Positions 3,284-63,547 of a DNA stretch of 64,000 nt are shown here, in pieces. The notes below the pieces were generated by a model. That model saw only the letters and a list, made by a program, of their open reading frames with translations, did no database searches and had not been told where the DNA came from. Position numbers and translations under genes: made by a program. The first letter of the stretch is position 1. Each line of letters starts with the position of its first letter. The DNA lies in NCBI GenBank assembly GCA_964006375.1, contig OZ023264.1, positions 16,812,225-16,876,224 on the forward strand, given 5' to 3'. This stretch comes from Tillus elongatus (Eukaryota > Arthropoda > Insecta > Coleoptera > Cleridae).

Positions 3284-3357
<74 letters not shown>

Positions 3358-3745
3358 CCGTCTGATAACTCAAAAAATAATTAACCGATTTCAATGAAAC
3401 TCGGCAAGTGCCTTTCTTTTATTAATGGCTTGGATGAGTTCGTTAGGCAGGTAAATCGGACGGTTAATTTTATTTTCTACGAAAATAACAAAGCTGTTTT
3501 AATAAAATTTACTATACATGTTGCCTTGGAAGAGGACTTACCAAGTACCAAAATTCAACTTTCTCAGTTTATAGAAAATTGAGTTATTCAAATTTTAAAT
3601 TTTCTTTTGAAACAATTTTTTTTCTCCAAAAATTACAAAGTTATTTTAATGAAATTTGGTGGATATCTTGTCCTAGGAAATACATTACTACCTACCAAAA
3701 TTAAACTTTCTAAGATGATAGAAAACTAAGTTAATCAAATTTTTA
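3146..3745 (+). mobile_element. ACE (AT-core element) copy, 3' end lost
   Basis: The copy begins after a T-run with AGTGAATCGTTATTAAAAAAATTCACT, an imperfect hairpin. It continues with GAGAGGTATCGATGGTGAGA, GGACCCCTAGAACCCATATT and GGGTCAGTTTCAATTTT. An (AT)n array follows, then the body (CGTCTGATAACTCAAAAAATAA...). The body degrades after about 3745 without reaching the GCGTCC terminus. No protein is encoded. Confidence 0.8.
3287..3353. repeat. (AT)n array within ACE
   Basis: About 67 bp of TA dinucleotides lie at the standard internal position of the ACE family. Confidence 0.97.

Positions 3746-4099: not shown

Positions 4100-4705
<606 letters not shown>

Positions 4706-12362: not shown

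Positions 12363-12445
<83 letters not shown>

Positions 12446-33989: not shown

Positions 33990-34179
<190 letters not shown>

Positions 34180-37248: not shown

Positions 37249-37314
<66 letters not shown>
37249..37314. repeat. (AT)n array within ACE
   Basis: 66 bp of AT dinucleotides left of the inverted repeat. Confidence 0.97.
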
Positions 37315-37318
<4 letters not shown>

Positions 37319-37351
37319 AGAAAGGTTTAAGGGCAAAGCCGCAAAGAGACA

Positions 37352-37396
37352 AAGGCAAACACGTGTTTTAGGCTAATTAGCCATCATCAGTACGGT
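37352..37396 (-). ncRNA. Degenerate type I hammerhead ribozyme motif, left arm
   Basis: Minus strand: ACCGTA, CTGATGA, a stem II TGGCTAATTAGCCT with GGCT/AGCC pairing and an AATT loop, then AAAA where GAAA is required, CACGTG, TT, and TGCCTT instead of TGCGGT. Stem II and the palindromic stem III are intact. The core G to A change and the weakened stem I suggest it no longer cleaves. Confidence 0.65.
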
Positions 37397-37536
37397 ATAG
37401 CCAGGTGGAGATAGTAACATTCTGGATAAAGATGGAAAAATATACGGAGTCCCAACAGGCAACCAGTGCACAATTTGTTGGGACTCCGTATATTTTTCCA
37501 TCTTTATCCAGAGTGTTACTATCTTCACCTGGCTAT

Positions 37537-37573
37537 ACCGTACTGATGATAGCCTGAAACACGTGTTTGCGGT
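37537..37573 (+). ncRNA. Type I hammerhead motif with deleted stem II, right arm
   Basis: ACCGTA (37537-37542), CTGATGA (37543-37549), a collapsed stem II (TAGCCT), GAAA (37556-37559), CACGTG (37560-37565), TT, then TGCGGT (37568-37573) pairing with ACCGTA through one G-U wobble. All core nucleotides are present, but most of stem II is deleted. Confidence 0.65.
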
Positions 37574-37646
37574 TGTCTCTTTGCGGCTTTGCCCTTAAAC
37601 CTTTCTCATTGTATAGTACATAAATGCCGTGTTACCAATCCTGTTT

Positions 37647-37650
<4 letters not shown>

Positions 37651-37729
<79 letters not shown>
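37651..37729. repeat. (AT)n array between nested inserts
   Basis: 79 bp of TA dinucleotides. The DD41D transposon terminus follows immediately. Confidence 0.97.
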
Positions 37730-37732
<3 letters not shown>

Positions 37733-39630
37733 TGGCGCATTGAAAACGAAACAGACTGATTTGCGTCCAAATAAATTTTTTTAAAGAAACGCTGAAACAA
37801 GTCAATTTTAATATTGAGGTTGACATGTTTTGACATAAAACTCAACTTTGTAACATCAACCCCTTGAGGGTGGTGATAACAACCCTTATATTTTAAATAG
37901 GGAACATGAGTCGAGTGTTACATCATTTGAAAGCTCTTTCTTTTCTGAATTCATCACACTAATTTTTTTGGAAGTTTTATTAACTCGTTCAAAAATTATT
38001 CACAGTTGGATTTGCAAGAACGTGTTTCATTCATTATGATAAGGAATGCACCATTTAGTCAATTTTTCGTTAAGAAAACTAAAAACCAAAACCAAAGGTT
38101 AAATAATGTTCATTCAGTTAAGTAAGTGTTCAAATTGTTGACCACCAGCTTCCATACAAAAGTACAAATTTTGTTCAAAACGAGCTCTGACATTCTGGAG
38201 CATTAGTTATTAGACGGCATTCTTCAACAATGCGTCGTCGTAATTCTTTCAGAGACTCCGGTTCTGTTGCGTAAATTCCTCTCTTGAAATGGCCCCATAG
38301 AAATAAGTCTAAAGGAATTAAATCCGGTGATCTATAGGGCCACTCAATAGCACCTCCACGCCCAATCCATTTTCCTAGAAACTATCTGTTCAAAACCTCC
38401 CTAACACGTTGTGAAAAATGCGGAGGAGATGCATGTTGTTGAAACACTAATTAATTTTCTTGATAGCGATCATCATTTTCAACAATGCCAATTAGTAGAG
38501 GGTAAACGATATCTTCTAGTAACTCCAAATACGTTTCGCCACTCAAATTGCCATCAAGAAAAATTGGTCCGATTAAACGGTCTCCAAAAATGCCAGTCCA
38601 GACATTCAATTTCTGTGGAGTTTGAGTGTGGACTTGGTGAAAATTTCTTGGATTATTATCTGCCCAATAACGACAATTATGACGATTGACTGTAGAGTTT
38701 AATAAAAACGCACACTCGTCTGAAAAGCAGATATTGAACAGAAAGTTCCCGTTATCAACTATTTGTGCAGTCATAACTTCACAAAACTCCCCGCCGATCA
38801 AAATCATCTTCATTCTGTTGTTGTACAAGATGAATTTTATACGGGTGAAATTTATGATGCTTCAATATTCGCTGAATAGTTCTTCTTTTGATGTTTGAAA
38901 CAGTGGCCAATTTTCTCGTGCTCAAAGTTGGGCCTGCAACACTTTGTCCTAAAACTTCAATCTCAGTAGTCTCATTTCTAACCGGAAATTCACGTTCAGG
39001 ATCTCGTTTTTTGTTGGCTACTGAACCACTTTGTCGAAACTTTGCAACTAACTCCAAAATTTATTTTCTGTTAATATGTCTGTTCGGATGTCGTTCATTA
39101 AACAAATTTGCGGTACGCTTGGCACAGTCATCGTTTTTGAAAAAAGGATTAGTTATTTCAACTCTTTCTTCTACAGAATACACCATTGTGAAATTAATTT
39201 TCGGTAGTACTATCAAGTATCAAACCGATCGATAAACGGAAATAATAAACCGCATTTCTCTCATTCCGATAAAAAATGTTCTGATAGTCAATTTTATGTT
39301 TATAAACCAACAAAAATTGACTATCAGCACATTTCTTATCAGAATGAGTGAAATGCGTTTTTGCATCTTCAACTGTGAATAATTTTTAAACGAGTTGATA
39401 AAACTTCAAAAAAAAATTAGTTTACTGAATTCAGAAAAGAAAGAGCTTTCAAATGATGTAACACTCGACCCATGTTCCCTATTTAAAATATAAGGGTTGT
39501 TATCACCACACTTAAGGGGTTGATGAGACAAAGTTGAATTTTATGTCGAAACATGTCCCCCTCAATATTAAAATTGACGTGTTTCAGCGTTTCTTAAAAA
39601 AAATTCTCTGGACGCAAATCCGTCTGTTTC

Positions 39631-39632
<2 letters not shown>
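37730..39632 (-). mobile_element. DD41D transposon, family A, copy 2, inside an AT array
   Basis: The left end GAGTGGCGCATTGAAAACG abuts TATATA. The right end (GACGCAAATCCGTCTGTTTCG) stops about 20 bp short of the full terminus and runs into TTTATATATA. AT arrays thus flank both sides, as expected if a TA-targeting element jumped into an (AT)n tract. About 90% similar to copy 1 by eye. Confidence 0.9.
38114..39185 (-). pseudogene. DD41D transposase, family A copy 2
   Basis: The minus-strand ATG at 39185 starts [10 protein letters not shown]. The 38779-39057 frame carries VAKFRQSGSVANKKRDPEREF and the helix-turn-helix TLSTRKLATVSNIKRRTIQR. The 38451-38828 frame carries FNICFSDECAFLLN (first Asp), YWADNNPRNFHQVHTQTPQK and FLDGNLSGETYLELLEDI. 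After frame breaks the C-terminus reads QFEHLLN with TGA (complement at 38114-38116). Original length about 355 residues. Several shifts make it inactive, but it is the most readable family A copy. Confidence 0.85.

Positions 39633-39718
<86 letters not shown>
39633..39718. repeat. (AT)n array
   Basis: About 84 bp of TA dinucleotides between the transposon and the ACE body. Confidence 0.97.

Positions 39719-43971: not shown

Positions 43972-44056
<85 letters not shown>

Positions 44057-45677: not shown

Positions 45678-45775
<98 letters not shown>

Positions 45776-59095: not shown

Positions 59096-59099
<4 letters not shown>
58972..59099 (+). mobile_element. ACE 5' part (host of the terminal nested cluster)
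   Basis: After CAGTTTT: AGTGAATTTTCTTTAAAAAAATTAACT, then CGACGAGATCCCGAC, CAAATGAGCGCTAATTAG, CCCCCTAGAACACATATCTGGGG and TCAGTTTCAATTTT. An ACE body appears only at 63596, beyond the inserts. Confidence 0.85.

Positions 59100-59178
<79 letters not shown>
59100..59178. repeat. (AT)n array
   Basis: About 79 bp of TA dinucleotides before the ribozyme-bearing repeat. Confidence 0.97.
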
Positions 59179-59181
<3 letters not shown>

Positions 59182-59195
59182 AGAAAGGCTTAAGG
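59179..59195 (-). repeat. Short inverted piece of the retrozyme-like unit
   Basis: AAGGAGAAAGGCTTAAGGG is the inverse of CCCTTAAACCTTTCTCCTT at 59431 and 59736. The 37-kb locus has the same junction, but with a much longer inverted arm. Confidence 0.7.
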
Positions 59196-59362
59196 GCTCC
59201 GGATGTTCACGCAGGTGATTTCTTTGCCTCCGTAGCTTTTTTGGTTGTTTCCCTCGGATTGAGGGTCTTCCAAATGTTGCTGCAATTGTGCACTGGTTGC
59301 CTGTTGGGACTCCGTATATTTTTCCATCTTCATCCGGAGTGTTACCATCTTCACCTGGCTAT

Positions 59363-59407
59363 ACCGTACTGATGATGACTAATTAGCCTGAAACACATGT
59401 TTGCGGT
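59363..59407 (+). ncRNA. Type I hammerhead ribozyme motif, unit 1
   Basis: Stem I is ACCGTA (59363-59368) with TGCGGT (59402-59407): five Watson-Crick pairs and one G-U. Core CTGATGA is 59369-59375. Stem II is TGACTAATTAGCCT with loop AATT, but one A-C mismatch where the 37-kb copy has G-C. GAAA is 59390-59393. Stem III is a short CACATG. The U16.1/H17 positions are TT, predicting cleavage between 59401 and 59402. U at the cleavage site is permitted but usually slow. Confidence 0.75.
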
Positions 59408-59667
59408 TGTCTCCTTGCGGCTTTGCCCTTAAACCTTTCTCCTTGTATAGTTCATAAATGCCGTGTTATCAATCCTGTTTTAGTTAATATAACTTCCTGG
59501 GCTCCGGATGTTCACGCAGGTGATTTCTTTGCCTCAGTAGCTTTTTTGGTTGTTTCCCTCGGATTGAGGGTCTTCCAAATGTTGCTGCAATTGTGCACTG
59601 GTTGCCTGTTGGGACTCCGTATATTTTTCCATCTTCATCCAGAGTGTTACCATCTTCACCTGGCTAT

Positions 59668-59712
59668 ACCGTACTGATGATGACTAATTAGCCTGAAACA
59701 CATGTTTGCGGT
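59668..59712 (+). ncRNA. Type I hammerhead ribozyme motif, unit 2
   Basis: Identical layout 305 bp downstream: ACCGTA 59668-59673, CTGATGA 59674-59680, GAAA 59695-59698, CACATG 59699-59704, TT, TGCGGT 59707-59712. Predicted cleavage between 59706 and 59707. Cleavage at both motifs would release a 305-nt RNA. Confidence 0.75.
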
Positions 59713-59788
59713 TGTCTCCTTGCGGCTTTGCCCTTAAACCTTTCTCCTTGTATAGTTCATAAATGCCGTGTTATCAATCATGTTTTAG

Positions 59789-59794
<6 letters not shown>

Positions 59795-59880
<86 letters not shown>
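59795..59880. repeat. (AT)n array
   Basis: About 86 bp of TA dinucleotides between the retrozyme-like dimer and a DD41D remnant. Confidence 0.97.
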
Positions 59881-61154: not shown

Positions 61155-61295
<141 letters not shown>

Positions 61296-62095
61296 GGTGT
61301 TACAAAATAGTGGGCCAATCCGCTAACCACGGATTCCCGGGACGAAAATTTTATGACTTTTCTTATAACATTTTTCTTCTGGGGGCCCCGTTTTCGAAAT
61401 ACAAAGTGTTGAAGTTGAACTTGAAAAATAGTTTTTCATTTCTAATTTTTATGTTTATGAAGTTATCTCCATGAAATTTTGCACGTAGCCTTATTTCAGA
61501 ACTAGACGCCATCTGTGTAGATGAGGAGAAAAAAATCAAATCCCAAGGGGGGTACAGGGGGGGGTGGAACAAGTATTGACCCTCTAAACTTTTTTGTGCG
61601 CACGCCAATGGTTTCAAAACAAATGGCTTTTGTTAGACAAAATAATTTTATAACTTTTATTTCTCGAGTTTAATTTTGATAAAACAACTAGTTTATGAGT
61701 TATTGTAAGTTGTATGGTCGGACCCAAACAGGCGAGAAAAAACCGACGAAACTTTTTTCATTTATAATTTTTATGTTTTTGAAGTTATCTTCATGAAATT
61801 TTGCATGTGGTCTTATTTCATAACTGGACGCTATCTGTGTAGATGAGGAGACAAAATTCAAATCCCAAGGGGGGTACAGGGGGTGGAACAAGTATTGACC
61901 CTCTAAACTTTTTTGTGCGCACGCCAATGGTTTCAAAACAAATGACTTTTGTTAGACAAAATAATGTTATAGCTTTTGTTTTTCTAGTTGAATTTTGAGA
62001 AAACGACTAGTTTATGAGTTATTGTTGTATGTTCGGACCCAAACAGATCAGAAAGAACCTACGAAACGTTATCTCTATGAAATATAACATGTAGT

Positions 62096-62320
62096 TCCCC
62101 CGACCTCAACCCCTTAGATTTTAGTTTCTGGGGATATATGAAAGAATTTGTGTACAGGGTGCCTATACTCGATGGAGAACATCTGCGGGAACGAATCCTA
62201 CAAGGCGCAGAGGAATACCGTATGAAACCAGACATTTTCAAAAAAATTCGGTTTTCTCTTATCAAAAGAGCCCGCCTGTGCATCCAAGAGGATGGTAGCT
62301 ATATTGAGCATTTAATTTAA
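62096..62320 (+). pseudogene. Transposase C-terminal remnant of element G
   Basis: 74 in-frame codons starting exactly at the arm boundary: SPDLNPLDFSFWGYMKEFVY (third catalytic Asp in NPLD), RERILQGAEEYRMKPDIFKK and LCIQEDGSYIEHLI, ending TAA at 62318-62320. The C-terminal (F/I)EHL signature matches families A, B and D. The first two catalytic Asp and the DNA-binding domain are deleted. Confidence 0.88.
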
Positions 62321-62740
62321 TTATAAATTTATTTCTATAACATCGCTTTACTTGCCATTTTTCCTTATTTTTAGTTTAGTTTTCATGTTAATACTAGACT
62401 GACAGTTTAAGTTTAATACAAGTTATACTTATAAAACGGTTTTGATGACTTCTAATTACATATGTGTGAAACAAGTATGTATGTATTCAAGCAGCAATAT
62501 TTAAGGCAATGGAATGAGCTACAATTTCTTTGTATTACATTCTTTATTCTGATTGCAAAAAAGTAAAAGTAAAAGTAAAAAAAATTCCAAATTTTTTAAA
62601 TTTGTTGAGACACGTCACCGGCGTTGAAGAACGCAAATAACCTACGATATTAGTTTGTATTAGACCACCGGCGCCCGAATAAATAATGTAGGGCTGTGAT
62701 TTTTCTTATTCACGCAGATGTCGTCTAGTCGTGGTATAAG
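62321..62740. other. Non-coding middle of element G
   Basis: Non-coding sequence between the transposase stop and the right arm; nothing further recognised. Confidence 0.5.
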
Positions 62741-63544
62741 ACTACATGTTATATTTCATGGAGATAACGTTTTGTAGGTTCTTTCTCACCTGTTTGGGTC
62801 CGACCATATAATTTACAATAACTCATAAGCTAGTCGTTTTCCCAAAATTCAACCAGAGAAACAAAAGTTATAAAATTATTTTGTCTAACAAAAATCATTT
62901 GTTTTGAAACCATTGGCGTGCGCACAAAAAAGTTTAGAGGATCAATACTTGTTCCACCCCCCCTGTACCCCCCTTGGGATTTGATTTTTTTCTCCTCATC
63001 TACACAGATGGCGTCTAGTTCTGAAATAGGGCTACGTGCAAAATTTCATGGAGATAACTTCATAAACATAAAAATTATAAATAAAAAAAGTTTCGTCGGT
63101 TTTTTCTCGCCTGTTTGGGTCCGACCATACAACTTACAATAACTCATAAACTAGTTGTTTTATCAAAATTAAACTAGAGAAACAAAAGTTATAAAATTAT
63201 TTTGTCTAACAAAAGCCATTTGTTTTGAAACCATTGGCGTGCGCACAAAAAAGTTTAGAGGGTCTATACTTGGTCCACCCCCCTGTAAACCCCTTGGGAT
63301 TTGATTTTTTTCTCCTCATCTACACAGATGGCGTCTAGTTCTGAAATAACGCTACGTGCAAAATTTCATGGAGATAACTTCATAAACGTAAAAATTAGAA
63401 ATGAAAAATTATTTTTCAAGTTCAACTTCAACACTCTGTATTTCGAAAACGGGGCCCCCAGAAGAAAAATGTTATAAGGAAAGTCATAAAATTTTCGTCT
63501 CGGGGATCCGTGGTTAGCGGGTTGGCCCACTATTTTGTAACACC

Positions 63545-63547
<3 letters not shown>

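Follow-up and report, generated by a model that had tools for sequence, protein, structure and literature searches.

Penelope-like elements have been proposed as a strong candidate for the mover of animal retrozymes, with which they share hammerheads and a tandem form and with which they co-exist (PMC7229834). Minimal hammerheads are found in the pLTRs of Penelope-like elements, and these pLTRs often occur alone or in partial tandems (PMC3846280, PMC7761336). In the Penelope inserts that have been published, a terminal unit sits head-to-head in shortened, inverted form, a 31-bp tail is optional and simple AT-rich targets are favoured (PMC3846280). In the case of the anole element, both strands are cut and extended by the enzyme and two adjacent internal start sites bound a tail of 30-40 bp; the start lies 111-118 nt and the hammerhead cut 26 nt into the ORF, a gap of 85-92 nt by subtraction, and the start has no homology to the target (PMC11167929). 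Metazoan retrozymes are described as more than 70% paired (PMC4918200).

We describe a family of 305-bp hammerhead units in the beetle Tillus elongatus, both in a window of 64,000 nucleotides (positions 16,812,225 to 16,876,224 of contig OZ023264.1, assembly GCA_964006375.1) and in the genome around it (1.72 Gb, 30 contigs). In this family an end rule ties two known things together, the retrozyme unit and Penelope-style ends. A preliminary description of the window had noticed one tandem locus, here called locus A; it recognised neither a second one (locus B, 37316-37651) nor the inversion of arms, the fixed position of both ends and the link to Penelope.

Results

Locus A does hold two head-to-tail 305-bp units, as had been claimed: TRF gives a period of 305, 2.0 copies and 98% matches at 59194-59796, and the two units differ at 3 of their first 297 positions. 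The span first proposed was 59179..59799; of this, 59179-59193 is an inverted arm, antisense to the unit, which overlaps the sense unit by GGGC; at this inner junction antisense to unit position 231 is joined to sense from 305/1. No ATG ORF within the unit exceeds 32 aa, and its two long stop-free frames gave no Pfam match over the cut-off. Both units carry the motif ACCGTA-CTGATGA-(14 nt)-GAAA-CACATG-TT-TGCGGT with a stem I of six gapless pairs, one of them U.G, just as described. Stem II has the A.C mismatch that had been reported, and a U.U at its base as well. By hammerhead numbering the cuts would presumably fall where Table 1 places them, releasing 59402-59706. The constrained hammerhead fold of the locus A motifs is without stem II and lies 5.7 kcal/mol over the minimum; folded as a circle, unit 1 has a z of -1.3 with 50% of its bases paired, and 18 of 200 shuffles were equally stable.

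Table 1. Features of the two window loci and of the second hammerhead family (family 2; positions within genomic loci L046, L054 and L079)
Feature	Position	Strand	Remark
(TA)n array, left of locus B	37249..37315
Locus B inverted arm, tail-less	37316..37475	-	motif copy: stem II intact, stem I and G12 broken
Locus B sense arm, ends with tail	37476..37651	+	motif copy (CTGATGA at 37543), 8-nt stem II deletion
(TA)n array, right of locus B	37652..37729
(TA)n array, left of locus A	59099..59178		flank like empty sites 3287, 43977, 45690
Short inverted arm, tail-less end	59179..59197	-	19 nt including 4-nt GGGC overlap
Unit 1, 305 nt	59194..59498	+
Unit 1 hammerhead motif	59363..59407	+	worn stem II; predicted cut after 59401
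Unit 2, ending with tail in (TA)n	59499..59796	+
Unit 2 hammerhead motif	59668..59712	+	predicted cut after 59706; offset 305
Tail, between the two putative RT start sites	59750..59796	+	both ends recur genome-wide
(TA)n array, right of locus A	59792..59880
Family 2	L079 1-900	-	fused to 305-bp family
Family 2	L054 2066-2449	-	fused to Penelope ORF remnant
Family 2 fragment	L046 2030-2145		inverted, near GIY-YIG domain

Locus B consists of an antisense arm head-to-head with a sense arm, antisense to position 90 being joined to sense from 108, and contributes two further motif copies with different damage in each. Both loci start in the same way, with (TA)n followed by AGGAGAAAGG[C/T]TTAAGGGC, which reads antisense to the unit downwards from position 250, and both finish in sense orientation close to unit position 291-297. 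The two kinds of end lie 43 and 84-90 nt beyond the predicted cut. The concept of a tail, as applied to locus A, is taken from what PMC11167929 and PMC3846280 describe for Penelope-like elements. Matches of locus B to microRNA models, MIR3704 at 43.6 bits (cut-off 60) and mir-2253 at 25.4 bits (cut-off 47), were below threshold, lay on its foldback and were rejected.

The inserts at A and B are 95% (171/180) and 93% (150-151/162) identical and their left flanks only 79%, and because of this difference we read the loci as two separate insertions. By BLAST the left flank of A matches that of B at 78.9% and those of three empty sites at 77.1, 78.6 and 75.0% (there was no BLAST row for the fourth site, 12366), and the left flank of B matches three empty sites at 69-74%; the flanks of A and B are thus slightly closer to each other than to these empty sites, and two other left flanks match that of A equally well (79.8 and 80.2%). 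BLAST figures were used because end-free alignment was uninformative: random 130-mers averaged 0.74 by that measure, which was dropped.

An abundant host repeat of the window has a (TA)n microsatellite at its centre and receives nested insertions of several unrelated elements (at 3287-3353, 12366-12442, 43977-44053, 45690-45773 and others). Those four are the ones, among 22 (TA)n rows in the window, that are directly flanked by both recurrent halves of the host repeat; at loci A and B the left half is direct and the right half is met only past further nested insertions. On each side of both inserts the (TA)n is as long as a whole empty array (80 and 89 at A, 67 and 78 at B, 67-84 when empty), perhaps through target duplication or later expansion. 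Other features of the window include a 2255-bp element in (TA)n at 61293-63547, which is bounded by near-identical CAGGGTGTTACAAAATAGTGGGCCAA terminal inverted repeats and contains a 319-bp tandem dimer (61432-62067); a 1904-bp segment between (TA)n arrays at 37730-39633, next to locus B on its right side, whose ends are inverted around AACGAAACAGAC; a (TA)n insert of about 35 bp at 33990-34024 (CTGACGA...CACGAAA, no stem II by eye), which was set aside; and two separate 147-bp tandem dimers with 78-79% matches at 3466-3743 and 4359-4656.

Counting tandem copies genome-wide, as the preliminary description had advised, gave 144 matches to the 305-bp unit, grouped in 40 clusters, from the best 40 of 1456 candidate places, those most like the window's unit. 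Head-to-head inverted pairs make up 26 of the 40 clusters, and those with a single arm may, like locus A, have a short inverted one that is easily overlooked. Among the 80 outer ends, 66 are outward 3' ends and 14 are 5' ends. Of the 66, 30 lie 90 nt beyond the predicted cut (unit position 297), 24 lie 42-48 nt beyond it (249-255) and 12 lie elsewhere. The class at 249-255 (17 at 255, 1 at 254, 6 at 249) is counted as one site because BLAST can slide a few bases in TA. The end rule is the one first found at loci A and B: 21 of the 26 two-armed clusters have one end of each class, with an inverted terminal unit and a tail at fixed ends as at both window loci, 5 have at least one end elsewhere, and in none do both arms share a class.

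Residence in an (AT)n array, proposed for locus A, extends to the family, since TA repeat makes up 60% or more of the 60-nt flank at 66 of the 80 outer ends, against a background of 89 of 3197 window 60-mers; both sides qualify in 28 of the 40 clusters and neither side in 2. The TA-less cluster at C3:97463183 adjoins what looks by eye like both halves of the host repeat. Inspection of flanks brought no poly(A) end to light. A distance of less than 20 kb separates only one pair of clusters among the 40 (1333 bp); no pair forms a unit-ORF-unit arrangement, and in the loci read no ORF with RT plus GIY-YIG is joined to the 305-bp unit.

From the window alone the case for a hammerhead is modest. 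A relaxed descriptor found only the two motifs of locus A there and 10 matches in 300 Markov windows, a strict one gave no match in the window and 2 in the Markov set, a six-pair stem I was reached by 0.59% of 100,000 shuffles with the core words fixed, and none of 15 pairs covaries among the window copies. Across the genome, 91 of 124 motif copies (123 of the 124 in clusters) have the core, the U-H and stems I-III, and 37 of the 40 clusters have at least one complete copy. None of the four window copies is complete in core and stems; the window copies are therefore among the worn ones, in agreement with the slight decay first suspected. The base before the cut in the 91 complete copies is T in 78, C in 12 and A in 1, and the helix III octamer is a perfect palindrome in 110 of the 124, a property that is lost at locus A (6/8). 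The rate of change is 1.58% in the motif and 1.52% and 1.77% in the rest of the unit; the test for constraint is negative, the rate being no lower inside the motif than outside, as expected for copies not selected after insertion.

The covariance search with Rfam type I hammerhead models that had been suggested returned no match for the 305-bp family. There was no hammerhead in the window at gathering level, none at loci A and B at E<=10, and none for the family in four genomic loci (L028, L074, L079, L081), in searches with single copies and not with a family model. In our view this silence is due to the shortness of helix III and to the U.U of stem II. A search of the own genome with RF00163, covering the best 74 of 207343 candidates, gave one match at 33.7 bits, just below the cut-off of 34 (L061; G000:C1:253323806-253323851); its sequence looks by eye unlike the 305-bp family, and the 305-bp unit was not seen by eye in the part of that locus inspected. 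Ribozyme activity of the family is a prediction from its sequence.

The early view of a non-autonomous, ORF-less tandem hammerhead unit is borne out by the 40 clusters, most of whose motifs are intact and whose arms reach about 7 units without an ORF (C3:97463183-97465434); one two-armed cluster has 5 plus 3 units. C before the cut occurs in 17 copies from 6 clusters, never alongside T in one cluster, and in all three C clusters with both arms readable it is present in both. Minor-allele sites are uniform within the cluster in 16 of 43 cluster-by-site cases (200 permutations gave a mean of 1.8% and a maximum of 9.7%) and mixed in 27, which could be explained by later mutation and by site 251, next to an end. 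Divergence averages 2.7% between opposite arms, 2.2% within an arm and 3.2% between clusters. Given these figures and the 27 mixed cases of 43, the argument for one template per insert rests mainly on the C variant. Multi-unit arms from a self-cutting RNA suggest a circle as template; an uncut multimer is the alternative.

A second family of hammerhead units, about 319 nt long and with a similar fold, links this material to Penelope. Two of the five stem II pairs are changed on both sides between the families (five sequences only); shuffles reached two pairs in 135 of 500 cases and the covariation score in 13 of 500. Rfam sees family 2 below threshold (HH9, 30.3 bits, E 2.4e-4, cut-off 52). 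In L079 family 2 in antisense is followed by a short sense piece and then by the 305-bp family in sense, which runs out into (TA)n; the two families are not separated by (TA)n, and the arrangement is most simply one insertion with a template switch. In L054 family 2 stands ahead of a truncated ORF in the same orientation, beyond which lies a GIY-YIG domain. Either a template switch could have produced this order, or a Penelope element with a pLTR of the family 2 type could have suffered a deletion. Residues 1-12 of the ORF piece derive from the unit and residues 13-108 recur, whole or in part, in 7 other GIY-YIG loci. The piece has no match in Pfam or PDB; we take it to be Penelope ORF because of that recurrence and of an RT motif. 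It is absent from the loci of the 305-bp family. GIY-YIG domains are abundant in the genome (all over cut-off among the best 150 of 14221 candidates), and a tblastn search with all ORF pieces of at least 90 codons from GIY-YIG loci, in which many matches are other repeats, gave matches near, not within, clusters at L007 and L077. The window also contains LINE-type ORFs, with RVT_1 in 4 of 19 and Exo_endo_phos_2 in 2 of 19.

Discussion

The 305-bp family is a multicopy, ORF-less tandem hammerhead unit of 170-400 bp with a GC content under 50%, the features by which a retrozyme is recognised; high self-pairing is a described trait of retrozymes that we do not treat as defining. Our preferred reading, to which we give a probability of about 0.78, is that it is a retrozyme whose 305-nt unit is copied and inserted in trans by a Penelope-type RT/endonuclease. 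We file it as a retrozyme with Penelope-type integration, and not as a Penelope element, because no ORF with RT plus GIY-YIG is joined to the unit in the loci read. Both the circularity of the RNA and the identity of the enzyme are inferences. An RNA of 305-nt units, circular or multimeric, would be bound by the enzyme, which would open a (TA)n tract and let each of the broken strands prime reverse transcription at an internal site of the RNA, downstream of the hammerhead cut by about 42-48 nt for one strand and about 84-90 nt for the other. Synthesis would go round the template, in many cases past the length of a single unit, before the two cDNAs were joined head to head. The wider proposal is that Penelope-type enzymes integrate animal retrozymes by dual-start priming: the two strands of a cut (TA)n array would prime on one small RNA circle, one at the near and one at the far start, and extension round the circle would give head-to-head multimers; we think it has slightly better than an even chance of being right.

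The clusters might instead be ORF-less derivatives of an autonomous Penelope-like element whose pLTR is the 305-bp unit. The hammerheads, solo copies and partial tandems of Penelope pLTRs (PMC3846280, PMC7761336) would suit this, as would the fusion of family 2 to a Penelope ORF remnant, but arms of many units lack an ORF, the sole pair of clusters within 20 kb does not enclose one, the L054 ORF piece finds nothing in loci of the 305-bp family, GIY-YIG pieces come near clusters and not within them, and the unit's own frames are short or without Pfam match; we consider the idea unlikely. Movement by a LINE enzyme, with the inverted arms produced by twin priming as in L1, could draw on the LINE-type ORFs of the window, and the GGGC overlap at locus A would suit twin priming. 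That process predicts neither two fixed starts, one per arm (21 of 26, with the same class in 0 of 26), nor the copying of a single RNA variant into arms of several units, the flanks inspected showed no poly(A) end to the eye, and we judge a LINE enzyme to be very improbable here. A dispersed satellite with a chance or irrelevant likeness to a hammerhead would account for the silence of Rfam on the 305-bp family and for a motif that shows no visible constraint after insertion; it is hardly credible given 91 of 124 copies complete in core and stem features, insertions with retroelement ends, and a second family that keeps the same fold with two of five stem II pairs changed on both sides and a sub-threshold HH9 match.

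Several observations count against the retrozyme reading that we prefer. Five of the 26 two-armed clusters lack the two standard ends, the circular fold is not unusual, no 305-bp locus among those read is joined to a Penelope ORF, Rfam finds no hammerhead in the family, and opposite arms are 2.7% apart with most minor-allele cases mixed. The right end lies on ATATA, and the anole start is not homologous to its target. The genomic evidence as a whole comes from the best 40 of 1456 candidate places, those closest to the window's unit. In these clusters, most of which have the end signature of the Penelope enzyme class with one start per arm and whose arms share RNA variants, the Penelope-style ends support the existing idea about the enzyme that moves retrozymes, and the count of ends can be repeated in any genome with retrozymes. 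A literature search covering titles and the starts of abstracts found no retrozyme end structure of this kind, and pattern searches of viral and genome contig collections gave no matches; we do not claim that the structure is unreported.

Minimal Penelope hammerheads reportedly cleave as dimers (Lunse et al. 2017; Cervera and de la Pena 2014). The 305-bp family resembles them in its self-complementary helix III octamer (110 of 124), activity here being predicted only, and differs from them in the locus A copies, where the palindrome is lost. With the metazoan non-LTR retrozymes of Cervera and de la Pena (2020, PMC7229834) it shares an ORF-less tandem unit of 170-400 nt and 44% GC, a type I hammerhead and an organisation in dimers to multimers; in the axolotl HHR_Amex2 of the same paper, stem II likewise has a U.U at its base, and a tetraloop caps a helix III of 2 bp. 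Unlike those retrozymes as described in the sections used, the 305-bp family has arms that meet head-to-head, one of two fixed ends on each arm, and insertion into (TA)n (the word 'inverted' does not occur in the main text of PMC7229834), and its 305-nt RNA, judged from unit 1 of the window, is not strongly self-paired (50%). From Penelope-like elements it is set apart by the absence of an ORF, by many-unit arms and by a right end on TA microhomology. In common with A. vaga Pen2a (PMC3846280) and Anolis Poseidon (PMC11167929), it has a head-to-head inverted terminal unit, an AT-rich target, a hammerhead and a structure that points to priming from both strands; its tail measures 41-48 bp against 31 or 30-40 bp in those elements, and its end lies 84-90 nt past the cut against 85-92.
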